A stretch of DNA of 64,000 nt, taken from Bacteroidota bacterium. GTDB lineage: Bacteria; Bacteroidota; Bacteroidia; 2-12-FULL-35-15. The stretch is from contig CANJPX010000001.1 in assembly GCA_947476185.1 (NCBI GenBank), positions 124,001 to 188,000 on the forward strand. Direction: 5' to 3'. This document shows, piece by piece, positions 1-13,052 of the stretch (within the stretch, counting starts at the first letter, position 1; each line of letters opens with the position of its first letter). A program made the translations under genes and the position numbers. Below the pieces are notes generated by a model. That model made no database searches. It had not been told where the DNA came from and saw only the letters and a program-made list of their open reading frames with translations.

Positions 1-1507
1 TTTTGAAGTATTCATTTTTTAATTGATCATTTTTTTCAGCATCAGCTATAGTTAAGTACAGTGTTACCATACTCTGGCAGGCACCTGAATTATTCGGATA
101 TATTTTAAGACTACGCTCACCGTAATAAATTGCTTTTTTGAAGTATTCCTTTTTTAATTGAGCATTAGTATCTGCGATGGCTTTTGATAAATAAAGTATT
201 GTTACATACTGATTTGTTCTAACGCTGTTTGGAGCAGTTATTATATCCGCTAAATAAATGGTTTCATTATTCTTCCATTCAGCATTCCTTGAATATGTTT
301 TTATTGAAAACAATATTAATATAATAAATAAAATAGTGTTTGCCAGCACTCTTCTTTTTTTTTGTGCTTTTAAAAAAAATAATGCCAAAACTATACAGAA
401 CGCAAAGGATGGCTGAAATAAAAGTCGCTCGGATAAAGGAGTGCCAATATCGACTACAAAATTTGAGACAAGTGAAATTGTGATCATAAAATATAAGATG
501 CAGAAAGAGATAAGATTTTTTCTTTTAAGCGTCCAAATTGCGTAAACCAATAAACTTATCAAAACGATAAATGAAATAAAAGATGTTAATGAGAATAATT
601 TTATATATGGTATTTGGTTATATCCATAATCCAAAGATAATGGATGTGGGAATATTAATAATCCTAAATATTTTAAAAGAATAAATATTTTAGTAGCAAA
701 AGCTTCTGTTGCTGTGGCATATAAAAAGGGGAAATTTAAAATATCCTCAGTTGCCATTGAATTTTTAATGCCTATTATCGAAATACGTAATGACATATAT
801 GCGAGAAAGACAGCAACTAACGGTATAGAAAACTGAAGTGATTTATTGAATTTTTGATTGTAGAAGAAGTATAAAATCAAGGGCGCTATTCCAATAAAAG
901 TAACAGCGCTTTCTCTAGTCAGAAGGGCAAGAAAAAAAGAAGTGGAGGCAATTCCAAGCCTAATAAGTGATTTGGTTTCTGTGTATTTGATAAAAGAAAT
1001 TAAGGAGAGGGTAATTAGTAAAAAGGTAATGAGTTCATCTCGACTTTTTACGTTCGCAATTACTTCTGTATGTATTGGGTGCGCTACAAATAACAAGCAA
1101 GAAAAAAATGCTAAATATTGGTTCTGTTTTTGAAAGAGTTGTGTTTGTAATAATTTATAAAGGGCAGCGATTAAAAATATAAAAAATAAAATATTAGTCA
1201 AGTGGCTAATAATTGGATTTGCTCCAAAAAACTGATGTTCTAAAGCAAAAACAACTAAGGAAAAAGGTCGGTATCGAGCCTCCGATAAATTGTTTACATT
1301 TTGCTTGAAGCCATAAAATAGTTCAGTTGATAGTATTTCAGGAATTCCTTTAACCCCTTTTGCAACTAAAGAATTTTCCGCCATCATGGGATTATCATCA
1401 ACAGCATATTCATTAGAGAGTGTATTTACATTTAAGCAAAATGCTAAAATGATCAATATTATTAACTGATATTTTGTGTTTAAATAAAAATTTTGAAATA
1501 TCTTCAT
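1..1507 (-). CDS. TMTC-like membrane glycosyltransferase with TPR tail, 3' end cut by window edge
   Basis: The frame stays open from ATG at 1507 to base 1, giving about 502 residues with no stop, so the C-terminus lies outside the window. It begins with a hydrophobic segment, then YAVDDN, a run of membrane segments, and HPIHTEVIANVKSRDE. This is the layout of GT-C type TMTC proteins, which transfer sugar from a polyprenyl-phosphate donor on the outer side of the membrane. Near the window edge TPR units start, including YFKKAIYYGERSLKIYPNN. It is a close paralogue of the gene just upstream, 6 bp away, so the pair is a tandem duplication and probably one transcript. Donor and acceptor are unknown; O-mannosylation of exported proteins is only inferred from the family. 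Confidence 0.75.
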   Translation of the reverse strand, partial: MKIFQNFYLNTKYQLIILIILAFCLNVNTLSNEYAVDDNPMMAENSLVAKGVKGIPEILSTELFYGFKQNVNNLSEARYRPFSLVVFALEHQFFGANPIISHLTNILFFIFLIAALYKLLQTQLFQKQNQYLAFFSCLLFVAHPIHTEVIANVKSRDELITFLLITLSLISFIKYTETKSLIRLGIASTSFFLALLTRESAVTFIGIAPLILYFFYNQKFNKSLQFSIPLVAVFLAYMSLRISIIGIKNSMATEDILNFPFLYATATEAFATKIFILLKYLGLLIFPHPLSLDYGYNQIPYIKLFSLTSFISFIVLISLLVYAIWTLKRKNLISFCILYFMITISLVSNFVVDIGTPLSERLLFQPSFAFCIVLALFFLKAQKKRRVLANTILFIILILFSIKTYSRNAEWKNNETIYLADIITAPNSVRTNQYVTILYLSKAIADTNAQLKKEYFKKAIYYGERSLKIYPNNSGACQSMVTLYLTIADAEKNDQLKNEYFK

Positions 1508-1513
1508 AAAAAT

Positions 1514-3292
1514 TTATTTAGAAAATTCTGTCATATCAAATTTATGATTCGGTTCTAAAATTCTTACCTTTTGCCAAGCCTTCATTCCATTTGTTGTATC
1601 ATTTATCAGAAGATAGCATCCACCTATATTGTACCATGCTTCGGAATTATTTGCATTCAAATTCACTGCTTCCGTATAAAGGTTAATGGCTGTAGATATT
1701 TTCTGCTGATCAAGAAATTTGTTTCCTTCCTTATAAAAAAAATCACTTAAAAGAGTTGCCCAATTTTTTACATCCTGATCATTTGGTTCAATTGTTTGTG
1801 CGGTTTCAGTGAGTTTAGCTGACTTCTGAAATTCTCCTTTATGGTAGTATGCAATGCTTAGTCTCAAGTAGGAATAGGCGAATTCCGAATGTATTTGTAA
1901 TGACATCTTTCCATATTGAATGGCCTGGTCGAGAAGCATGTTTCTTTTTTCTGCATCACTCTCATTGTTGGCTTTTATTATCAATTGTTCACAGGCATAT
2001 AAATTTAATCTGGCACAATCCGGGGATGATTTTACATCTGTTAAAAAAAGTGTTTCGTTGTTTTTCCATGCATTATTCCGTGCGATGGTTTTAATTGAAA
2101 ATACGATTGAAATTATTCCGGTTAGAAAATAGGTCAGGACTTTTTTATAGTTGAATAACTGAATAATCAAAATTGCAGAAAGAATGGAAAATGCTAAGGA
2201 GGGTATAAATAGCATCCTTTCAGCCATCGTTGTACCAAGGTCAATAATAAGATTTGTGCCTAGTGAAATAGTTATGAAAAAAAAGAAAATGCAAAAACTG
2301 AGCATTTTTCTTTGTTTAAAATCAGCTATTGCCACAAAAATTAAACTTGCAAGTACCAGGAACGAAATGATAAACGGAAACGAAAACAAATTGATATATG
2401 GGATCTGGTTATAACCATAATCTGAACTTAGCGGAAAAGGAAAAAAGAGTAGCGAAATATACTTGAATAGGATATATGTTTTTGTGGCAAAGGATTCTGT
2501 GGTTGTAGCGTAGATATAAGGCGAATTCGTGACATCATTTACCGGATGATCATTTAAGCCAACAATAAAATATCGAAGACACATATATCCTGCAAAAATA
2601 AGAATGTACGGAATGGTTATAACAAAAGATCTTTTAAGTGTTTGGTTCAAGAAGAAATAGATGACCAATGGAATGACACCTAGAAATGTGACTGCACTTT
2701 CTTTTGTAAGTAGTGCTAAAACAAAGAATATCAATGATGCAAATAAATTTTTGGTAGCAGAATTTTCAAAATAATTTACTAGTGTGAGCAATGATAATAT
2801 GAGAAAAATAGAGGTGATGATCTCATCCCGGCCTTTCACATTTGCGATTATTTCGGTATGAATCGGATGTACTGTGAAGAAAAGACAAGTAATGAAAGCA
2901 AGCAAATTGTGTTGTCCTTGAAATACAACTTGCTTTAGGAATCGGTAGAGAATATAAATGAGAAGTGCAAAAAGAATAATATTTATCAGATGACTGACAA
3001 ATGGATTGGCACCAAAAAACTGATATTCCAGTGCGAAAATTATTAGTGAAAAAGGTCGATACCGAGCACCAGTAAGAATATTTTCTTGTTTTGAATACCC
3101 GGCAATATAATCTGTAGTTAATATTTCGGGAATACCTTTTATTCCTTTTTTAACATAATTGTTTTCTGTGAGAACAACAATATCATCTAAGGCGTAATCA
3201 TGGAAAAGTGTGTTTGCATTTAATCCAAGAGCGATAAAAACCAATAAAATAATTTGATATTTGGTCTTAAATATAAAGCTTCTCGATTTCAT
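1514..3292 (-). CDS. TMTC-like membrane glycosyltransferase with C-terminal TPRs
   Basis: A 592-residue protein. The N-terminus has a membrane anchor followed by YALDDIVVLTEN, where the acidic pair matches the catalytic loop position of GT-C enzymes. About ten hydrophobic segments follow, with HPIHTEIIANVKGRDE around residues 141-156. From about residue 410 the protein becomes soluble and helical, with TPR-like units (AYSYLRLSIAYYHKGEFQKS; SEAWYNIGGCYLLINDTTNG). The family is typified by eukaryotic TMTC protein O-mannosyltransferases; bacterial members are usually annotated only as TPR proteins. It shares its whole architecture with the following paralogue. It lies 134 bp downstream of the FNR-like gene. 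Substrate unknown; exported glycoproteins, possibly the nearby cytochrome, are speculation. Confidence 0.75.
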   Translation of the reverse strand: MKSRSFIFKTKYQIILLVFIALGLNANTLFHDYALDDIVVLTENNYVKKGIKGIPEILTTDYIAGYSKQENILTGARYRPFSLIIFALEYQFFGANPFVSHLINIILFALLIYILYRFLKQVVFQGQHNLLAFITCLFFTVHPIHTEIIANVKGRDEIITSIFLILSLLTLVNYFENSATKNLFASLIFFVLALLTKESAVTFLGVIPLVIYFFLNQTLKRSFVITIPYILIFAGYMCLRYFIVGLNDHPVNDVTNSPYIYATTTESFATKTYILFKYISLLFFPFPLSSDYGYNQIPYINLFSFPFIISFLVLASLIFVAIADFKQRKMLSFCIFFFFITISLGTNLIIDLGTTMAERMLFIPSLAFSILSAILIIQLFNYKKVLTYFLTGIISIVFSIKTIARNNAWKNNETLFLTDVKSSPDCARLNLYACEQLIIKANNESDAEKRNMLLDQAIQYGKMSLQIHSEFAYSYLRLSIAYYHKGEFQKSAKLTETAQTIEPNDQDVKNWATLLSDFFYKEGNKFLDQQKISTAINLYTEAVNLNANNSEAWYNIGGCYLLINDTTNGMKAWQKVRILEPNHKFDMTEFSK

Positions 3293-3426: not shown

Positions 3427-4131
3427 TTATTCGATTTTGTAATCGCGAACAATGTTTTTTATACCCCTTTCATTAAGGATCTGTATTTCCCTTTTATTTC
3501 TGAAAATTAATTTTTCATCTTCAAAATCGCTTAACTGTCTTGAAACCTGCTCTGGTGTTGTCCCTGCGATATCCGCAATTTCTTGTCTGCTCAATTCGAT
3601 ATTTAATGTTTTTGTTTTTGGATTCGTTCCAATTGTTTCATTTAGATAAACAAATGCTTCTGCCACCTTTTCGCGAATGTTCATTTGAGCATGATATTTT
3701 ACTCGCAATTCTGTTCTTCTTAATTCAAGTGCATAAAAAAGGATCAAATGATACGCAAATGAAGGGCTATTCATGCATGTTTCTTCAAAAATGCTAGTCT
3801 CCAAAAAGCATATATTAGAATCCATCATGGCAATTGCATTAAAGTAGTATTTGTCATTTCCAAGCACACGATGGCCAAGAATATTGCCATCATTAGCCAA
3901 CCGGACTACCTGCTCTCTTCCGTTCAAATTTGGCGTTACAACTTTTACTACTCCTCGCTGAATGAAGTGGATTCCAAGCATTGTATTTCCTTCCCTGAAA
4001 ATCGAATCGCCTTTTTTATAGAAGTTTTGATTCTTGCTATTGGAAATTTTTTCTAAATATTCTTCAGGACAATATTGTTTAACAAAACATTTGAGGCTAT
4101 TACAATTATGACATTCAATTCTTTGTTTCAT
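3427..4131 (-). CDS. CRP/FNR-family transcriptional regulator, FNR-like cysteine set
   Basis: A 234-residue regulator with an N-terminal cNMP-binding beta-barrel (about residues 25-140) and a C-terminal winged helix. The recognition helix reads TTPEQVSRQL, giving the ExxSR signature of FNR-type proteins rather than RExxxR of CRP. The N-terminus carries Cys7, Cys10, Cys15 and Cys21, with more cysteines at 108 and 119. E. coli FNR binds its oxygen-labile 4Fe-4S cluster through three N-terminal cysteines and one internal cysteine, so an Fe-S oxygen or NO sensor is plausible here. It sits between a multiheme cytochrome operon and downstream of a heme operon with hemN, which fits control of anaerobic or heme metabolism. 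The cluster itself is inferred, not shown. Confidence 0.85.
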   Translation of the reverse strand: MKQRIECHNCNSLKCFVKQYCPEEYLEKISNSKNQNFYKKGDSIFREGNTMLGIHFIQRGVVKVVTPNLNGREQVVRLANDGNILGHRVLGNDKYYFNAIAMMDSNICFLETSIFEETCMNSPSFAYHLILFYALELRRTELRVKYHAQMNIREKVAEAFVYLNETIGTNPKTKTLNIELSRQEIADIAGTTPEQVSRQLSDFEDEKLIFRNKREIQILNERGIKNIVRDYKIE

Positions 4132-4186: not shown

Positions 4187-5854
4187 CTAATATAGCGAAT
4201 TTATGTGATCATGTTTGTGACAGGACAGGTTACATGTTCCATGTCCCGGTGAATTTTTAGTGTAATTAAGTATTCCAAGAGAATTTTTAGTGACAATATT
4301 TGTGAAATTGATTAAATAGCTGTTATTAACCGAATTGCCCTGAGAAACACTTACTCCGTGTGGATCGTGACAAGTATTGCAAGACGTTAGTCTGCCATGA
4401 GTTTGTGTTCCACTGAATGCATTATGGCTATTTGTAGTTGCTGATTGATCATGACATTGATAACACAATTCATATGCTGACCGGTTGTCAGCGAAGTTTG
4501 CCGATCTATCATAATTATATTTAAGGATCTGTGGATACATTGAGCCATGCGGACCGGCTGGTGAGTTCTGACCGTTGCTTGCATGACAGTCTGTGCAGTA
4601 AATCATACTGGATGCTGTTAACGGTGCTATCAGTCCGGAAATACTTGTATTTTTCCCGACAGCAGCTATAGGATGAAAGGAAGGATTTACAGGATCAAAT
4701 TCTAATCGAACATTATTTTGAACTATTTGTCTTGCGGAAGGACTTGCTGTTAAAGCGTTATCAGCATGGCAACGATAACATATTTCATATTCATATTTTA
4801 CAGAATTTACAGCTATTCCACCTTGATTTATTCCTTTCACCCCTACGTTCGGGCCTCTCACGACAGGGGCTTTTGTATTGTCCTGCGCTTTTGTTGAAGC
4901 ATGTGAATTATGGCAATCAACACATTCAACGTGTTTGGTAGTAACAGTTACATCTTCTGTTGGATCATGGGCACCCGTGTAGGCATAAACATCATGCCTG
5001 TATGTTTTTGTAAATTCTGCCTGAATATTTTTAGAAGCAGCATTGCCATTATGACAATCGAGACAATTATCTTCCTCTGCAGGATATTTTAATAAACGTT
5101 TCAACCCACCTGAATTATGGGGGTTGTGGCAGTTTTCACAAGCGTTTTCTGCTACAGTAGTCCATGGAGTGTATGGCCAGGGATTTGGCAAAACTTTGTT
5201 CCAAGTTTTTTCTGAAGTGTTATGACTGCTTGTGACCCATGTTTTATTGTCGTGGCAAATAATACATAATTCTGATTTTTTGGTTGACGCAACTAAGAAA
5301 TCAGAATTAATATTCTTATGAGGATCATGACAGGATGTGCACTGTAATTGATTGTTTTCCAATTTCACTTTGGAACCGAGATTTGAAGGGTCTTTAAGTT
5401 GGCCATTAGATTTTGCAAGGTCATTATCATAAAGGAAAGAAATCGGATGGTCATTCCTAAGATCAGTTGCGAGATTGCTTTTTCCAGCAGGCATGGCAAC
5501 CGTATTCGCAAAGCTAATTATTTTTGGCCTACTTAATACACTGCCTAAAGCGATAGTTCCATCGTGACAGGAAAGACATAAAATAGAGGAACCACTTGGT
5601 TGACCGGGTAATGCTTTCATGGTTGAACTATTGTAAATAGTATATTGTGCCCCCGAACTTTTTCTATTCCAAAGAGGAGCTGCGGGGGAACTGTTATGAT
5701 TTGTGTGGCAGAACAAGCATATTTCTGTTTCGCTAGTCGCCTTAACATTTCCTGGCCCACCGATTGATAAATTATGCTTTGTAGTGATAATCGACTGAGA
5801 ATTTATAATTGTCGGAATTACGATTAAAATAATCAAATGAATAATTTTTTTCAT
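4187..5854 (-). CDS. exported dodecaheme c-type cytochrome
   Basis: A 555-residue protein with signal peptide MKKIIHLIILIVIPTIINS and no later membrane segment or lipobox, so it is expected in the periplasm or secreted. It has eleven CxxCH heme c sites (CLFCH, CLSCH, CTSCH, CIICH, CENCH, CLDCH, CVDCH, CYRCH, CTDCH, CYQCH, CNTCH) and a final CNLSCH, a CxxxCH variant, for twelve possible hemes. Many additional histidines could act as distal ligands. The spacing resembles the doubled-CXXCH multiheme families used in respiratory and extracellular electron transfer. Its ATG overlaps the stop of the NHL gene upstream (ATGA), so the two are translationally coupled. The redox partner is unknown. Confidence 0.88.
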   Translation of the reverse strand: MKKIIHLIILIVIPTIINSQSIITTKHNLSIGGPGNVKATSETEICLFCHTNHNSSPAAPLWNRKSSGAQYTIYNSSTMKALPGQPSGSSILCLSCHDGTIALGSVLSRPKIISFANTVAMPAGKSNLATDLRNDHPISFLYDNDLAKSNGQLKDPSNLGSKVKLENNQLQCTSCHDPHKNINSDFLVASTKKSELCIICHDNKTWVTSSHNTSEKTWNKVLPNPWPYTPWTTVAENACENCHNPHNSGGLKRLLKYPAEEDNCLDCHNGNAASKNIQAEFTKTYRHDVYAYTGAHDPTEDVTVTTKHVECVDCHNSHASTKAQDNTKAPVVRGPNVGVKGINQGGIAVNSVKYEYEICYRCHADNALTASPSARQIVQNNVRLEFDPVNPSFHPIAAVGKNTSISGLIAPLTASSMIYCTDCHASNGQNSPAGPHGSMYPQILKYNYDRSANFADNRSAYELCYQCHDQSATTNSHNAFSGTQTHGRLTSCNTCHDPHGVSVSQGNSVNNSYLINFTNIVTKNSLGILNYTKNSPGHGTCNLSCHKHDHINSLY

Positions 5855-6858
5855 TTTTTAGCGTCTTTTAATAGTTGAAAAACTTGTATTCTTGAATTAT
5901 AGCTATCTGCAACATATATTTTATCTGCATCATCAATGTATATCCCAGAAGGCATCCAAAACTCCCCTTGACCTTGACCTTGAGTTCCGAAGGTGTATAA
6001 AAAATTCCCATTGATATCAAAGATCTGAACGGCATTAAATAGTGCATCAGCCACATAAATATTACCATTTGAGTCGGTAGCAATTCCTTTAATGCTCGAA
6101 AAATATCCTGTTGAATTACCATTTGATCCAAAAACAGAAAGAACAGCACCATCTTTATTAAATACTTGTACTCTGAAATTCATGGCATCGGATACATATG
6201 CATTTCCTTTTTTATCGATCCAGATATGAGTAGGGAAATTAAATTCTCCTTTCGCTAACCCTCTTGAACCTATTTTTTTTATTATCTCTCCTTTGTCATT
6301 TAAAATTACTATTCTGTGTTCCCCTGTCTCCAATACCCATATTTCATTGCTGATTGAGGAATAAGCAATGCCTGTTGGTTTATTGAGTTTCAAAGAATCA
6401 TTCAAAACGGTTAATTCTTTTTTATCAGTATCAACAAGAAAGATCTTATTCAAATACGAATCGGTAAAAAGCATTTCATTTTTATGGAAATTACAAATAC
6501 CCACCAATGAAGAAAAGGAATAATCTTTCTTATCGATAAAATGATGCGTTGTAGCCAGCCTGTCGCTTACCTGAAAAACTTCATTATTTCCTTGGTCCAG
6601 GAACCAAAAAGAATTTTGATCTGTGGCAATAACAGAAACAGGGCGACTTGGTTTTAATGCCTTTTTCCCAACAATGAAATCTTTGATCTTGTATTTTAGA
6701 GCCTTGTTTTGGTTTTCAGAAAATGACCACTGACTCATCCATTGGATTTCTGATTGTTCTGTGCTTGCAGAGGTTTGAATATGGGATGTATCCTGAGCAT
6801 GACCGGTAGTATTATATAAAAAAATAATTACCAGGGAAATAAAAAAGGAGTAGTTCAT
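5851..6858 (-). CDS. exported NHL-repeat beta-propeller protein
   Basis: The chosen ATG at 6858 gives 335 residues and places signal peptide MNYSFFISLVIIFLYNTTG at the N-terminus; an upstream TTG (6924) or ATG (6879) would add an unlikely extension. About six NHL blades are visible, the clearest being KGEFNFPTHIWIDKKGNAYV, SSIKGIATDSNGNIYVADAL and EFWMPSGIYIDDADKIYVAD. NHL propellers are protein- or ligand-binding scaffolds and are often encoded beside multiheme cytochromes in metal-reducing bacteria. The gene ends inside the cytochrome start codon (ATGA overlap), so equal production of the two proteins is likely. A role as cytochrome scaffold or interaction partner is inferred from coupling only. 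Confidence 0.8.
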   Translation of the reverse strand: MNYSFFISLVIIFLYNTTGHAQDTSHIQTSASTEQSEIQWMSQWSFSENQNKALKYKIKDFIVGKKALKPSRPVSVIATDQNSFWFLDQGNNEVFQVSDRLATTHHFIDKKDYSFSSLVGICNFHKNEMLFTDSYLNKIFLVDTDKKELTVLNDSLKLNKPTGIAYSSISNEIWVLETGEHRIVILNDKGEIIKKIGSRGLAKGEFNFPTHIWIDKKGNAYVSDAMNFRVQVFNKDGAVLSVFGSNGNSTGYFSSIKGIATDSNGNIYVADALFNAVQIFDINGNFLYTFGTQGQGQGEFWMPSGIYIDDADKIYVADSYNSRIQVFQLLKDAKK

Positions 6859-7035
6859 ATTTCTAAAATGAGCAATCATGCTTATGCTGTTTTTACCGAA
6901 TAAAAATAATGATAAATAAAACAATAATTCATGATGAAAAGCATAGTTTTAGAAATAGCAACTGTTTCCTGCATTAACACATAAATTCATCATGGTGCCT
7001 TAAGTGTAAAAAAATGTATATCAATATTTTACCCT

Positions 7036-8400
7036 CTAAATAGACTTGCTGAACATGTTTCCTTCTGTCTTTTTTCTTCGCATGCGAGCATCCAAAGTGG
7101 AGCTGATATTGCGAATAAATAAACTGCCTTTTTCTGTGACGGTGATTGAATTGTTTTCCAATTTCAATAGGCCGTCTTCTGCCAACAAGGAAAGTTCGGC
7201 CTTAATATTTTTCAGGGAAATCGGATCAAATGTTTTTTCGTCAATTGTTGTATTCCCTCTGCACATCAGATCGAGAATGTTTTTACGAATAACAAGATCT
7301 TCTTCTGTCAATAAATGCCCATTCACAAGTGGGAATTGACCATGCGAAATTTTTTCCTGGTACTCTTCCACATTTTCTTCGTTTTGTGCAAAAGCTGTCC
7401 AGGCATCACCAATACTTGATGCCCCTAGTGCAATAATAAGTTTTGAGTCGGTGGTTGTATACCCCATAAAATTCCTATGCATGGTGCCGTTAGAAACAGC
7501 ATCAAATAATTTATCATTTGGCAATGCAAAATGATCCATGCCTATCGCTTTGTATCCTTGGGCTAATAAAAGTTTTTTACCAAGCTGATACATTTTCCAT
7601 TTTTCATTTGCCTTTGGCAGATCCTCCTTTGTGTATCTGCGTTGTCCTTTACTTTTCCATGGAACAAAAGCGTAAGAGTAAAAAGCGATCCTATCGGGTT
7701 TTAGTTCTTTTATTTTCTTTATTGTAAAGTCGATGCTTTCAACAGTTTGTTTTGGCAGTCCATAGATCAGGTCAATGTTGATGCTGTTATATCCGTGTTT
7801 GCGGGCCCATTGAACCACTTCATTTGTAGTTTCAAATGACTGAACACGATTTATAATATACTGGACCTCCGGGTCGAAATCCTGAACACCTAAACTGATC
7901 CGGTTAAAACCAACAGTGGCTAATTGTGCCAAATGCTCTTCACTGGTGTAATTTGGGTGAACCTCAATACTAAATTCATGTTCTGGAGAGACTTTCGAAT
8001 CTTTAGTAATCCCTTTGATTAGTCGTACCAGATTTTCAGGACTGAAGAATGTCGGTGTTCCGCCACCAAGGTGTATCTCACGAATGACCGGAGCGGATGG
8101 CAATAAAGCACGGTACATATCCCACTCTTTTAAAACAGTGACCAAATACGGTTCTTCAACTTTGTGATTAGTTGTTATGCGTTTATTGCAAGCACAAAAA
8201 GTACACAGATTTTCGCAGAAAGGTAAATGAATGTAGATACACAATTCTCCATTTTCTTTTTTGAAAGTTTCAACTACAGCTTTTGACCAGCTCTCATTTG
8301 TAATACTTTCCTTTTCCCAGTATGGAACTGTTGGATAGCTCGTGTAGCGAGGAAGAGGAAGGTCGTATTTGTTAAGTAAAGGTAAAATATCTTCGTTCAT
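7036..8400 (-). CDS. hemN: oxygen-independent coproporphyrinogen III oxidase HemN
   Basis: A 454-residue radical SAM enzyme that decarboxylates two propionates of coproporphyrinogen III to give protoporphyrinogen IX without oxygen. The cluster motif is CENLCTFCAC (Cys62, Cys66, Cys69, Cys71), the CX3CX2CXC pattern of true HemN rather than HemW. EIHLGGGTPTF and GFNRISLGVQDF are the usual SAM-binding segments. The N-terminus (LLNKYDLPLPRYTSYPTVPYW) starts as in classical HemN. It is the last gene of the heme operon, 10 bp after hemL. Choosing the oxygen-independent enzyme, together with the FNR-like gene downstream, suggests heme synthesis at low oxygen. Confidence 0.95.
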   Translation of the reverse strand: MNEDILPLLNKYDLPLPRYTSYPTVPYWEKESITNESWSKAVVETFKKENGELCIYIHLPFCENLCTFCACNKRITTNHKVEEPYLVTVLKEWDMYRALLPSAPVIREIHLGGGTPTFFSPENLVRLIKGITKDSKVSPEHEFSIEVHPNYTSEEHLAQLATVGFNRISLGVQDFDPEVQYIINRVQSFETTNEVVQWARKHGYNSINIDLIYGLPKQTVESIDFTIKKIKELKPDRIAFYSYAFVPWKSKGQRRYTKEDLPKANEKWKMYQLGKKLLLAQGYKAIGMDHFALPNDKLFDAVSNGTMHRNFMGYTTTDSKLIIALGASSIGDAWTAFAQNEENVEEYQEKISHGQFPLVNGHLLTEEDLVIRKNILDLMCRGNTTIDEKTFDPISLKNIKAELSLLAEDGLLKLENNSITVTEKGSLFIRNISSTLDARMRRKKTEGNMFSKSI

Positions 8401-8410
8401 TTCGATTAAT

Positions 8411-9688
8411 TTAAAATTTGTTTAAGGCCTCTAAAGTAATCACAATATCATCGTCAGACAAGGCATTATTTAAAAACCAGCTTTCGTAGGCAGATGGAGG
8501 TAAATAAATTCCCTTTGAAAGCATGTGATGAAAGAAACGGTTAAAAAATGGAATATCACATTTGGATGCTGTCTCAAAATTATTCACTTTGTGTTCACCA
8601 AAATGTACACTTATCATACTTCCAATCTGATTAATGGTATGCGCGATCCCTTTTGCAGAAAGGGTTTTATGTAATCCATCTTTCAATGAATTTGTTTTGC
8701 TATCAAGATTCTGATAAATTTTAGGGTCATTTTTTAATATACTTAGGGTTGTAAAACCGGCTATAGTTGCAACAGGATTTCCACTCAATGTTCCTGCCTG
8801 ATAAACATTTCCCAAAGGAGCAATGTGTTCCATAATTTCTTTTTTGCCGCCAAAAGCCCCGACAGGCATTCCTCCGCCAATAACTTTTCCATAGGTTACC
8901 AAATCCGCATCAATGTTTAGACGTTGCTGTGCACCACCGGGTGCAAGACGGAAACCTGTCATTACTTCATCAAAAACAAAAACAATTTTATGTTGAGTAC
9001 AGATTTTTCTTAAGCCTTCCAGATATCCGGGCTCCGGCAAAATACAACCCATATTTCCTACAACAGGTTCAATAATGATTGCTGCAATTTCTCCTGCATT
9101 TTCTTTAATTAATTTTTCTACCGCAGGTAGATCATTGTAGGGAGCAACCAGTGTATCGCAAGCTACACCCTTTGTTACACCAGGTACAGTTTGAATATTG
9201 AAGGTTGCAAGTCCGCTCCCTGCTTTAACTAAAAAGGAATCAGCGTGGCCATGATAGCAGCCATCAAATTTAATTATCTTGTCTTTGCCTGTATAGCCTC
9301 TAGCTAATCTGATCGCACTCATACACGCTTCCGTTCCGCTGCTAACCATACGCACCAGATCTACATTTGGAGCCATGCTTGTGATCAGCTCGGCCATAGA
9401 GATTTCTAATTCTGTTGGAGTGCCAAAAGAAATGGCTTCACTAACTCTTTGTTGAACAGCACGAACAACATCTTCATGGCAATGCCCCAATATCATAGGT
9501 CCCCAAGAACTGATATAATCTATGTATCTGTTTCCATCCACATCAAAAAGATAAGCGCCTTTTGCACTTTTCATGAAAACAGGATTTCCTCCGACACTTT
9601 TAAAAGCCCGTACAGGTGAGTTTACGCCTCCGGGAATAGTTGATTGAGCTCTTTTAAATAATTTTTCGCTTTGTTGATATGTGTTCAT
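8411..9688 (-). CDS. hemL: glutamate-1-semialdehyde 2,1-aminomutase
   Basis: A 425-residue, fold-type I PLP enzyme that converts glutamate-1-semialdehyde to 5-aminolevulinate, the second dedicated step of the C5 pathway. The PLP lysine is Lys268 in VTYGKVIGGGMPVGAFGG. NSPVRAF, SSGTEACMSAIRLARG and FDEVMTGFR are HemL signatures. Length equals the family norm. It lies 16 bp after hemE and 10 bp before hemN. Together with hemA it shows that the organism makes ALA from glutamyl-tRNA and not by the glycine/succinyl-CoA route. Confidence 0.96.
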   Translation of the reverse strand: MNTYQQSEKLFKRAQSTIPGGVNSPVRAFKSVGGNPVFMKSAKGAYLFDVDGNRYIDYISSWGPMILGHCHEDVVRAVQQRVSEAISFGTPTELEISMAELITSMAPNVDLVRMVSSGTEACMSAIRLARGYTGKDKIIKFDGCYHGHADSFLVKAGSGLATFNIQTVPGVTKGVACDTLVAPYNDLPAVEKLIKENAGEIAAIIIEPVVGNMGCILPEPGYLEGLRKICTQHKIVFVFDEVMTGFRLAPGGAQQRLNIDADLVTYGKVIGGGMPVGAFGGKKEIMEHIAPLGNVYQAGTLSGNPVATIAGFTTLSILKNDPKIYQNLDSKTNSLKDGLHKTLSAKGIAHTINQIGSMISVHFGEHKVNNFETASKCDIPFFNRFFHHMLSKGIYLPPSAYESWFLNNALSDDDIVITLEALNKF

Positions 9689-9704
9689 AATTGAAAATTA
9701 TTAA

Positions 9705-10736
9705 TTATAGAGACTTGTAATTTTTAACTGCGTCTACAAAAGCCTTGGCATTTTCAACCGGAATATTTGGCAAAATACCATGACCCAAATTTGCAATGTA
9801 TCTGTCCACTCCAAAAGCATCTATCATCTCTTTTACTTCCTGTTGGATCTGTGGAATAGAAAGTAATAATTTACATGGATCAAAATTTCCCTGTAATGTT
9901 TTTTTGTTCTGAGTAAGTTCTCTGGCAAGTTTCGGAGTAATGCACCAATCGATGCCAATCGCAGAGGCAGAGGATTTGCTTAATTCCTCTAATGCATACC
10001 AACTTCCCTTAGGGAAAAGAATGACAGGAACTCTTGCACTTAAACTGTCGGAAATTTTATTTAAATAGGGGAGCGAAAATTGATTAAAATCTTTTGGAGC
10101 CAACATTCCGCTCCAACTGTCGAAAACCTGAATTACATCTGCACCCGCATTTACTTGTTCGTGCAGATAAGCGATTGTTACGTCAGTTATCTTATTGAGT
10201 AATTGATGGGCCAATTCCGGTTGAGAAAAACAAAATTGTTTAGCCTTGTCAAATGTTTTACTTCCTTTCCCTTCCACCATATAACAAAGGATGGTAAAAG
10301 GAGCTCCGGCAAATCCGATCAGCGGCACACGATCATTCAATTCTTTTTTGATCAGTTTTATTGCTTTGTTTACATAATCGAGGGAGGCAACAGCATCTTC
10401 ACCAACAAGCAAGGCATCAATATCCTTTTGCGTATTTATTGTTTTAGGTAAAAAAGGCCCTTTGTGCTCTAAAAGCTGCACTTCGAGACCCATTGCTTGA
10501 GGGATCACTAAAATATCAGAAAACAATATTGCAGCATCTACTCCGATGTGGTCAACAGGTTGAATGGTAATTTCACATGCTAACTCAGGTGTTTGAACGC
10601 GAGTAAAAAAATCATATTTGTTTCTTAATTCGATGTATTCCGGCAAATATCTTCCCGCTTGTCTCATCATCCATACAGGAGGCCTTTCAACCTTTTCGCC
10701 TTTTAATGCTTTTATAAAAAGATGCTCTTTATTCAT
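9705..10736 (-). CDS. hemE: uroporphyrinogen decarboxylase
   Basis: A 343-residue cytosolic enzyme that removes four carboxyl groups from uroporphyrinogen III to give coproporphyrinogen [19 protein letters not shown] near the N-terminus and the [16 protein letters not shown] segment are diagnostic; the catalytic Asp lies in [13 protein letters not shown]. Length matches the family. It follows hemC after a 136-bp spacer and precedes hemL by 16 bp. In many relatives hemD sits in the space between hemC and hemE, but here no recognisable uroporphyrinogen III synthase fits. Confidence 0.96.
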
Positions 10737-10872
10737 ATTATTTTATTTAGTTCTTTGTAAATTTTCGCTGTCCGGGAATTTATTATCCCAAAGGAGATTT
10801 TGATGCGATCCTCTTTGATATTAATTATTAGATCAATATCTGTTTTGCCGGAAGAAATTGTGGCAAAATATT

Positions 10873-11799
10873 TTATTCTGTCATAAAACTTTTTAGCTCC
10901 TGAGCAATCTTATCGCCCCCATTTGCAAGCAACTTCAACGCTGCTAACTTTCCGGCATTTTCATAATTTTCTAATTCAAAATCCATTTCAACTTCAACTT
11001 TACGAACGCCATCCAGTGAAAGAATATTTCCGGTGAAATGAATTTTGTTATTGTCAGCAATTGCCAGAGCGGCTATAGGTATTGAACATCCGCCTTTCAG
11101 ATTTCTTAAAAAGGATCTTTCGATTCCGGTGCAAACTGCTGTTTCATGATGATTAAGGGTTTTACAAATTGCCTCAACCTCCGGATCATCTTCTCTGCAT
11201 ACTATACCCAATGCGCCTTGTGCAGGAGCCGGGAGCATCCAATCCAATTCTAATTTGTTTGGTACATTTAATCCGATCCTATCAATACCTGCCGAAGCAA
11301 ATAATGCTGCATTCCAATGTGTTGTACTTCCAAGTTTTTCTAATCGGGTATTGATATTTCCCCGTATTGATTCAATGGTATGATTCGGGTATTTGTTCAG
11401 CCATTGCGCTTTTCTTCTTAAACTGCTGGTAGCAATGGTTATTCCCTCTCTTTCAGAAACTTTAAATGTCGGATCCTGATAAACCAAAGCATCTTTTACA
11501 TTTGCCCTTTTGGGAATGGCTGCAATTTTTAAATTCTTTGGTAATTGTGTGGGAACATCCTTAAGGGAGTGAACAGCGATGTCTATTTTGTTTGACAGCA
11601 AGGCGCTGTCAAGTGTTTTTGTAAAAATACCCTGAACGCCCATTTCATATAATGGAACCGTTAGGTTAATATCTCCTTCACTTTTTACAAGGGTGATTTC
11701 TGTTTTTATTCCTTGTTTATTTAATAAATTTTCGATGAATTTTGCTTGCCATAAAGCCAAATTGCTGTCTCTCGATCCTATTCTAATTAGCCTGTCCAT
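10873..11799 (-). CDS. hemC: hydroxymethylbilane synthase (porphobilinogen deaminase)
   Basis: A 308-residue enzyme that polymerises four porphobilinogens into hydroxymethylbilane. RIGSRDSNLALWQAKF at the N-terminus, AVHSLKDVPT and SSLRRKAQW are family motifs. The dipyrromethane cofactor is attached through Cys238 in LKGGCSIPIAALA. The start overlaps the end of hemA by 17 bp, so the two are coupled. The product cyclises to the wrong isomer without HemD, which is not encoded in this operon and must be elsewhere. Confidence 0.96.
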   Translation of the reverse strand: MDRLIRIGSRDSNLALWQAKFIENLLNKQGIKTEITLVKSEGDINLTVPLYEMGVQGIFTKTLDSALLSNKIDIAVHSLKDVPTQLPKNLKIAAIPKRANVKDALVYQDPTFKVSEREGITIATSSLRRKAQWLNKYPNHTIESIRGNINTRLEKLGSTTHWNAALFASAGIDRIGLNVPNKLELDWMLPAPAQGALGIVCREDDPEVEAICKTLNHHETAVCTGIERSFLRNLKGGCSIPIAALAIADNNKIHFTGNILSLDGVRKVEVEMDFELENYENAGKLAALKLLANGGDKIAQELKSFMTE

Positions 11800-12979
11800 A
11801 ATGCATGAATTTACTCAAAATCTTCTCAGGTTCAAATTTCAAATTTTTATTTTGTTTCAAACTTACTACAAAGGATTGAATTGTTTTATTAACCATTTCT
11901 TCTTTAACAGCATCTTCAAGTTTTGCCAAATGAGGACAGCCCTGACTAGCATCAATCAGCATTTTTTTCAATTCTACAATTTGATTTCTTTTTTTATAAA
12001 AATCATTCCAGTCAACAAATGTAGCAATATGTGCATTTATTATCTCATTTGCGATTGGCAGATATGTTTTTCTGTTTGCAAGCGATTTGTCCAAGATAGC
12101 AGAAATTGTATCGATATCAAGAACTTCCACATTGTTATTTGTTTTGCAATCAGGGTGAACCGTTTGCGGAATTGAAAGGTCAAGAATTAATTTTATTTTA
12201 GAGTTTACCAGGTGCTGAGGAGTAACGATATACTGCTCGGAAGCTGTACTTAAAATTATGACCTCAAAATTTTGCAGATTTTCATCGATATTCTCATATG
12301 GTAATAATGAAAAACCATGCGTCATGGCGATATCCAAAGCAGTTGTGTAAGTTCTGTTTGAAATGGTCAAATCGAAATTCGGTAAATAATGTTTGATGTT
12401 CTTAGAAATATTGTTTCCAAATTTACCTGTTCCTATCAATAAGCATGTTGTAGGCTTCTCTCCAATTTTTTCTTTTAATATTTCAATTGCAGCGTAGGAT
12501 GCAGAAACGGTTCCTTTACTTAGATCTGTTTTTGTTTTTATTTCTTTCGAAGCCTGAATACAAACATTTGCCATTCTTTCAAAGACAGGACCCAATAACC
12601 CATTTTCTTTGGATAGTTTACAAGCATTTTTAAATTGCCCTAAAATTTCATAATCCCCTAATATCTGGGAATCAAGTCCTGAAGCAACCTGAAAAATATG
12701 TCCCAAAGCTTCTTCCGAAGTTTTTACAAATTTGTACGCGTCAAACAGTTCCTTGGATTGATTACAAACTGTGGTAATGATTTGTTCTGCAAGTTCAACA
12801 GAGCCCAAACCATATATCTCTGTCCTGTTACATGTGCTTAATACCACAAAATCGTTGAACTTTAATTCTTTTGCCAAATTATAACATTCAACTTGCTTTT
12901 CAGCATTAATTGAAAAAGCACTTCGAGTGGTGATGTCAGCATTCTTAAACGTTATTCCTATTACAAATGTACTTTCCAT
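11783..12979 (-). CDS. hemA: glutamyl-tRNA reductase
   Basis: An enzyme that reduces glutamyl-tRNA(Glu) with NADPH to glutamate-1-semialdehyde, the first and usually regulated step of C5 heme synthesis. Starting at the ATG at 12979 gives 398 residues and places the catalytic cysteine at Cys50 in VVLSTCNRTEIYG, its usual position; a TTG two codons upstream is less likely. GQFKNACKLSKENGLLGPVF and an NADPH-binding LLIGTGKFGNN segment follow. It is the first gene of a five-gene operon (hemA-hemC-hemE-hemL-hemN). An FNR/CRP-type palindrome lies upstream at 13053-13066. Confidence 0.95.
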   Translation of the reverse strand: MESTFVIGITFKNADITTRSAFSINAEKQVECYNLAKELKFNDFVVLSTCNRTEIYGLGSVELAEQIITTVCNQSKELFDAYKFVKTSEEALGHIFQVASGLDSQILGDYEILGQFKNACKLSKENGLLGPVFERMANVCIQASKEIKTKTDLSKGTVSASYAAIEILKEKIGEKPTTCLLIGTGKFGNNISKNIKHYLPNFDLTISNRTYTTALDIAMTHGFSLLPYENIDENLQNFEVIILSTASEQYIVTPQHLVNSKIKLILDLSIPQTVHPDCKTNNNVEVLDIDTISAILDKSLANRKTYLPIANEIINAHIATFVDWNDFYKKRNQIVELKKMLIDASQGCPHLAKLEDAVKEEMVNKTIQSFVVSLKQNKNLKFEPEKILSKFMHYGQAN

Positions 12980-13052
12980 AATCAAAAATTTATGTTAATT
13001 ACCTGTTAGCAATTTCATATAACAAATGTCTGTACATATATTTAAACCAATT

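Follow-up and report, generated by a model that had tools for sequence, protein, structure and literature searches.

The gene at positions 4187 to 5854 (minus strand) of the window, which is the 64,000-nucleotide stretch of a Bacteroidota genome that was analysed, encodes a UetJ-like c-type cytochrome of 555 amino acids with twelve haem motifs. Together with the gene directly upstream, which encodes an NHL beta-propeller protein termed NHL2, it constitutes a genuine conserved unit. We consider it probable (roughly 0.6) that this pair is the core of a conserved cluster for an outer-membrane conduit and a nanowire, in which the dodecahaem cytochrome would join the porin conduit to a filament of tetrahaem subunits.

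A cytochrome with twelve haem motifs

The cytochrome was delineated by its haem motifs, a 56-sequence alignment and an AF2 model. Its open reading frame contains 11 CXXCH motifs, at residues 46, 93, 172, 197, 239, 264, 311, 359, 420, 464 and 492, followed by one CX3CH motif (CNLSCH, residues 541-546; positions 4217-4234, minus strand). All 24 cysteines lie inside motifs, in agreement with the count of twelve and the terminal CX3CH given in a preliminary description of this DNA. The number of CXXCH motifs is not due to chance, because 5000 shuffles of the cytochrome composition yielded a mean of 0.05 and a maximum of 3. All 12 sites are kept across the alignment of 56 dodecahaem homologues, and in 54 of these the final site reads CX3CH, which makes it a hallmark of the family. 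Surveys that count CXXCH alone would overlook this site and label such a protein undecahaem.

By inspection, the signal peptide noticed earlier is of the Sec type and has no lipobox. The cytochrome matches the Pfam family Paired_CXXCH_1 (3.7e-29), and a search of NCBIfam equivalogs found none that fits either the cytochrome or its NHL partner. A match above the cut-off to PF22113, an MtrC/MtrF domain, is read as driven by the haem motifs and was discounted, because the fold search yields OmcE alone with confidence. Phylogenetically, the window protein falls inside a clade of Bacteroidota and Chlorobiota sequences (100/99), apart from the clades of Planctomycetota and Geobacteraceae. The closest orthologue (loci L012 and L025; genome G016, a MAG from Lake Pavin) is 88-93% identical and has nine CXXCH motifs. 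About 84 of its residues (382-465) are gone in frame, which possibly reflects a real deletion or an assembly error.

An OmcE fold with an additional histidine

The cytochrome consists of an OmcE-fold tetrahaem domain fused to an octahaem extension. The tetrahaem domain (residues 21-205, haems 1-4; positions 5240-5794, minus strand) was recognized with both phmmer and Foldseek. Among solved structures, residues 1-202 have two significant phmmer matches, the OmcE nanowire 7TFS (E 6.6e-29) and 9YUQ (2e-24), and in a profile search OmcE matches the dodecahaem family at 5.6e-47. The AF2 model of the cytochrome (pLDDT 78.9, pTM 0.77) has 7tfs as its sole confident fold match (E 3.6e-11, TMt 0.73, 201 columns). 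The octahaem part (residues 206-555; positions 4190-5239, minus strand) has no solved relative, in that phmmer found no match in the PDB at E<=1.

The likeness to OmcE of Geobacter sulfurreducens (PDB 7TFS) thus comprises four haem motifs, four other conserved histidines and the fold of residues 1-202. However, OmcE ends after haem motif 4, whereas the window protein continues for 350 residues with eight more haems and an additional histidine, His211. It is therefore a fused relative of OmcE and not an OmcE orthologue.

The histidines outside the haem motifs differ between the two families in one respect. Tetrahaem proteins have four that are conserved (27, 53, 136 and 179 in the numbering of the window protein), and 36 of 38 tetrahaems finish 2-6 residues past haem motif 4, with a tail that contains no conserved histidine. 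Dodecahaem proteins have the same four plus His211, which lies ten residues after motif 4 and is present in 56/56 sequences. His27 is invariant in the dodecahaems and is common to tetrahaems and OmcE.

One haem of OmcE takes a ligand histidine from the adjacent subunit (PMC9473688), and we infer from sequence comparison that His27 is the residue that crosses this interface. The N-terminal His27 of the dodecahaem could then serve as the outgoing inter-subunit ligand for the last haem, haem 4, of a tetrahaem subunit, and haem 4 of the dodecahaem itself would be capped internally by His211. With His27 outgoing and the protein's own haem 4 capped by His211, the dodecahaem may take an end position in the filament, and the simplest such position is the base, on the porin conduit. 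The domain fusion is likewise suggestive of mechanism.

The NHL partner

NHL2 is encoded at positions 5851-6879 (minus strand), as judged by its Pfam NHL match, the starts of orthologues and its adjacency to the cytochrome gene. The Pfam NHL match has an E value of 2.3e-25 (PF01436, 87.7 bits against a cut-off of 20). The gene ends at 5851, where it overlaps the cytochrome start (AAAATGA). An exported NHL protein with this ATGA overlap had been described before and is borne out here, but its start had been placed at 6858. Translation probably begins at ATG 6879 (MIAHFRN...), giving 342 amino acids, because close orthologues begin MIAHFRN or MIAHYRN.

By inspection, NHL2 of the window has a Sec-type signal peptide and no lipobox. 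Outside Bacteroidota, nearly all sequences with a complete start appear by inspection to have a lipobox-like cysteine and are predicted lipoproteins; a strict lipobox regular expression scored just 14/58 NHL2 sequences. This anchoring bears on another reading, in which the dodecahaem is the distal tip or mineral-contact head of a filament and the propeller is a mineral-binding or surface-binding adhesin. Binding of mineral nanocrystals has been proposed for NHL proteins next to an OmcE homologue (PMC12016550), and another NHL protein of the window genome, which carries a sorting tail for Por secretion (T9SS), adjoins a cytochrome with 19 CXXCH motifs. However, NHL2 is predicted to be a lipoprotein in most phyla, which is easier to reconcile with a base anchored to the cell than with a detached tip, and we regard a role at the tip as unlikely.

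The preliminary description had proposed that the propeller docks or shields the cytochrome; gene order makes docking of NHL2 on the cytochrome plausible. Perhaps NHL2 is a dedicated partner that holds or positions the dodecahaem at the cell surface, and a second propeller, NHL1, might do likewise for the tetrahaem. A mirror-tree comparison gave a distance correlation of r 0.84-0.88 between NHL2 and the cytochrome, and values for NHL1, the barrel described below and other cluster parts were equally high. The covariation is therefore attributed to co-inheritance of the cluster and not to contact, and mirror-tree was rejected as proof of contact. Candidates for a natural NHL-cytochrome fusion (L042, L051 and L068) were also rejected; they are out-of-frame readthrough ORFs, in which the NHL protein is encoded by a separate overlapping gene.

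Distribution of the pair

Scanning one genome per species (GTDB) with peptide patterns taken from the cytochrome alone gave 60 loci in Bacteroidota, Chlorobiota, Geobacteraceae and other Thermodesulfobacteriota, Myxococcota, Planctomycetota, Pseudomonadota, Nitrospirota and tubeworm endosymbionts, with phylum names as in the submitters' titles. Adjacency was assessed at 63 loci, drawn from the scan and from the genus of the window genome, that have enough upstream sequence; some of the genus loci duplicate other records. At 62 of the 63, the cytochrome gene is preceded on its own strand by an NHL gene, which ends within about 220 nucleotides of it and in most cases within 20. The exception, L079, also has no N-terminal domain. 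Both L079 and L078 align just to approximately residues 163-549, without the OmcE domain, and were left out of family membership.

The preliminary description had proposed the pair as a unit, an idea that would fail if homologues occurred mostly without the NHL partner; when this was checked, the opposite was found. Conceivably, the arrangement could reflect ordinary co-transcription with a general envelope protein that is functionally unconnected to the cytochrome, because NHL genes are common and the mirror-tree correlation is not specific. This explanation is very improbable, given that the 62/63 adjacency spans at least seven phyla and cytochrome identity down to 35%, that it persists even where the other cluster genes lie apart, as in the window genome, and that tetrahaem genes too have an NHL neighbour, in 29/36 cases.

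The cytochrome gene is rare within the class Bacteroidia, where it occurs in 5/395 sampled genomes and 2/196 genera. In the genus of the window genome it is present in 7/36 genomes, one of which has an internal deletion. According to their records, relatives were sampled from stratified lakes (Lake Pavin among them), from groundwater and from sediments. An anoxic, iron-rich water is a likely setting because of the source sites of some close relatives.

The surrounding gene cluster

Profiles show that the recurring neighbours are an OmcE-like tetrahaem, an NHL1 lipoprotein, a pentahaem lipoprotein, a large outer-membrane barrel, NHL2 and the dodecahaem, in an order that varies between phyla. 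Among 31 surveyed loci flanked on each side by 6.5 kb or more, the barrel is found in 25, the OmcE-like tetrahaem in 22 and both in 21. At some loci (for example, L044 and L046), the pair has neither tetrahaem nor barrel within 8 kb. The barrel, the cytochromes and the pair lie in one stretch in L031, L053 and L083. The order in L031, a Bacteroidota locus, is NHL2, dodecahaem, histidine kinase, NtrC-type regulator, tetrahaem, NHL1, pentahaem, barrel and a further cytochrome.

The cluster of the window genome has the order of L031 on one strand of one contig (C1, on which the window begins at position 124001), with the remaining parts approximately 20-30 kb from the pair. The OmcE-like tetrahaem (252 amino acids, C1:108328-109086; OmcE homologue, E 9e-18) is about 20 kb away and is followed by NHL1 (C1:106869-108131), a 9-haem lipoprotein (C1:103654-106473), a 753-amino-acid orthologue of the barrel family (C1:101225-103486) and a 10-haem cytochrome (C1:100143-101222), all on the minus strand, as is the pair. 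All matches to doubled CXXCH motifs in the window genome are on contig C1, and a search of that genome for an inner-membrane partner of the NapC/NirT quinol-oxidising type had no hit. The 9-haem protein (L006:3654-6473) is a pentahaem-type lipoprotein expanded to nine haems, with a long repetitive stretch rich in threonine and asparagine and a C terminus that looks OmpA-like. A second NHL-cytochrome pair of the genome lies at G000:C1:69.6-77.7 kb. Its cytochrome (L004:9629-14935, minus strand) has 1768 amino acids, 19 CXXCH motifs and PKD domains, and is preceded by the 930-amino-acid NHL protein (L004:14957-17749, minus strand) that carries the Por secretion sorting tail.

The preliminary description had inferred a role in periplasmic or extracellular electron transfer. 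An extracellular role is supported, because the cluster combines a large outer-membrane barrel with multihaem cytochromes, the OmcE-like tetrahaem being one of them. Electrons would pass between periplasm and surface via the barrel and the cytochromes that belong to it, and the filament of OmcE-like tetrahaems would be built on the dodecahaem as its junction. The tetrahaem could also act without polymerising.

The AF2 model of an orthologue of the barrel (pLDDT 88) has approximately 28-30 strands and a C-terminal RxF, and its Foldseek matches are outer-membrane barrels, with MtrB having the best TM-score (0.41/0.42) among the matches listed. The dodecahaem might instead be a trans-outer-membrane wire inside this barrel, as MtrA is, or a periplasmic carrier; the OmcE-like domain would then be an ancestral haem scaffold and NHL2 a barrel plug or assembly factor. 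Outside Bacteroidota, barrel-NHL2-dodecahaem is indeed the tightest gene order, and the profile weakly matches MtrA (6R2Q) over residues 173-275 (4.6e-7), a short stretch around haem motifs. However, other cytochromes of the cluster (10-haem, pentahaem and trihaems) could fill the barrel, and neither the retention of the OmcE fold in full nor the invariant His27 fits a mere scaffold. A wire inside the barrel or a periplasmic carrier is a doubtful alternative to a junction between conduit and filament, although less so than a role at the tip.

Related electron-transfer systems

The Uet (undecaheme electron transfer) cluster of Tenderiales and Gallionella was reportedly described by Eddie in 2022. 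It comprises the tetrahaem UetA, the isomerase UetB, the porin UetC, the trihaems UetDEG, the NHL proteins UetHI and UetJ, which has 11-12 motifs (PMC10734462). UetJ is also reported in PMC13386937. The window genome resembles this system in its cytochrome with 11 CXXCH motifs and one CX3CH, in its NHL genes (NHL2 in the window and NHL1 outside it), in its putatively extracellular OmcE homologue, which corresponds to the extracellular tetrahaem UetA, and in the barrel, which corresponds to UetC. In contrast, the trihaems UetDEG are absent from C1:100-134 kb, where the 9-haem lipoprotein and the 10-haem cytochrome are found; no PPIase like UetB was recognized by eye among the ORFs of this region; and the locus is split by an array of TMTC-like genes. 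Moreover, the window protein has 12 sites, the last of which escapes CXXCH-only counts. Most of the Uet list is present at the gammaproteobacterial loci L054, L077, L080 and L081, which contain NHL, tetrahaem, trihaem, barrel and NHL genes and a cytochrome with 11 CXXCH motifs. Because it shares with Uet the cytochrome, the NHL proteins, the tetrahaem and the porin but not the trihaems or the isomerase, we call the window locus Uet-like and OmcE-related, and not a proven Uet member; the correspondence, including that with Tenderia UetJ (Tel_16545), is judged from gene content.

Like MtrCAB and other porin-cytochrome (PCC) systems, the cluster encodes multihaem cytochromes with a large outer-membrane barrel, a likeness at the level of genes; in the window genome the barrel and the 9- and 10-haem cytochromes are together at C1:100143-106473. 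However, the window cytochrome as a whole is not of the MtrA or MtrC type, the barrel is similar to MtrB by structure only (TM about 0.42), and the cluster has NHL partners. The match of the cytochrome to the model for DmsE/MtrA-family decahaems (TIGR03508) is partial, at 52 bits against a cut-off of 192. Geobacterales loci, including one of Geoalkalibacter that contains an OmcE homologue (PMC12016550) and L067 of Geomonas paludis, likewise have NHL genes alongside those for multihaem cytochromes, whereas the Bacteroidota version has a non-lipoprotein NHL2, an FNR-type neighbour and the TMTC array.

The pair thus belongs to an already described kind of electron-transfer system, in an unusual host group. 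To have called it uncharacterised was too strong, because UetJ with the UetHI NHL repeats is a named and predicted system (PMC10734462). Overall, the first interpretation is supported in part, for the pair and its electron-transfer role, and the OmcE domain had been missed.

Regulators and flanking genes

A Crp/Fnr-type regulator with an FNR-like cysteine set (positions 3427-4131, minus strand; Pfam HTH_Crp_2 and cNMP_binding) is encoded 55 nucleotides downstream of the cytochrome gene. Its cysteines 7, 10, 15, 21, 108 and 119 are kept in 7/7 compared sequences of close relatives, with a spacing slightly different from that of E. coli FNR, and no curated equivalog was reached. Control of the pair by this regulator, as proposed earlier, lacks support from sites: FNR-box-like sequences number 115 against 99 expected, and were rejected as evidence at this near-chance frequency. 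The gene was seen beside the pair only in close relatives of the window genome. In the window genome itself, it and the TMTC-like tandem array occupy the place of the two-component system of L031-type loci. Elsewhere the neighbours are a histidine kinase with a haem motif and an NtrC-type regulator, or other genes. In L031 (9635-11149, plus strand), L029 and other Bacteroidota loci, the histidine kinase and the NtrC-type sigma-54 regulator are directly behind the dodecahaem gene. The sensor part of the L031 kinase contains a CXXCH motif, and the two proteins are possibly a haem-based redox sensor of the cluster.

The tandem array encodes TMTC-like GT-C/TPR proteins, with one member at positions 1514-3292 (minus strand; PMT_2 1.4e-7, TMTC_DUF1736 1.5e-4, TPR) and a second at 1-1507 (minus strand) that continues left of the window. 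In all, it covers window positions 1-3292 and G000:C1:111029-124000 (L006 and L007), all on the same strand and in exactly the interval that separates the dodecahaem pair from the gene for the OmcE-like tetrahaem. TMTC copies with at least approximately 42% identity to the window member occur only in 8/36 genomes of the genus, which are those with cytochrome-cluster genes, and the best copies in the remaining 28 are near 38%. Because OmcE filaments are glycosylated (PMC9473688), O-glycosylation of the nanowire by the TMTC-like array is a testable idea.

Directly upstream of the pair is hemN (positions 7036-8400, minus strand; TIGR00538, 434 bits over cut-off), the last of a hemA-hemC-hemE-hemL-hemN series that occupies positions 7036-12985 on the same strand. 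The assignments of hemA, hemC, hemE and hemL are readings of the translations only. The hemN gene is adjacent in some relatives of the genus (L011, L012 and L075) and was not seen upstream in L008 and L010.

A candidate joint between conduit and nanowire

A limited literature search found no explanation of how cytochrome nanowires are attached to an outer-membrane conduit. A protein with an OmcE domain and eight additional haems, encoded nearly always beside a propeller gene and usually near a barrel gene, is a concrete candidate for this joint, and His27 and His211 are residues by which the idea can be tested. In a more specific form, which we put forward tentatively and with less confidence than the junction itself, the dodecahaem would be the dedicated base (nucleator or anchor) of OmcE-type nanowires, with His27 kept and haem 4 capped by His211, seated on the porin conduit and held by the NHL protein.

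OmcE/Uet-type machinery is now placed in Bacteroidota, Planctomycetota, Chlorobiota and tubeworm endosymbionts. If the specific form is true, the role of a base subunit would be conserved from Bacteroidota to Planctomycetota and Geobacterales, and in the genus of the window genome the filament would be decorated by the expanded TMTC-like O-glycosyltransferase array inside the locus.
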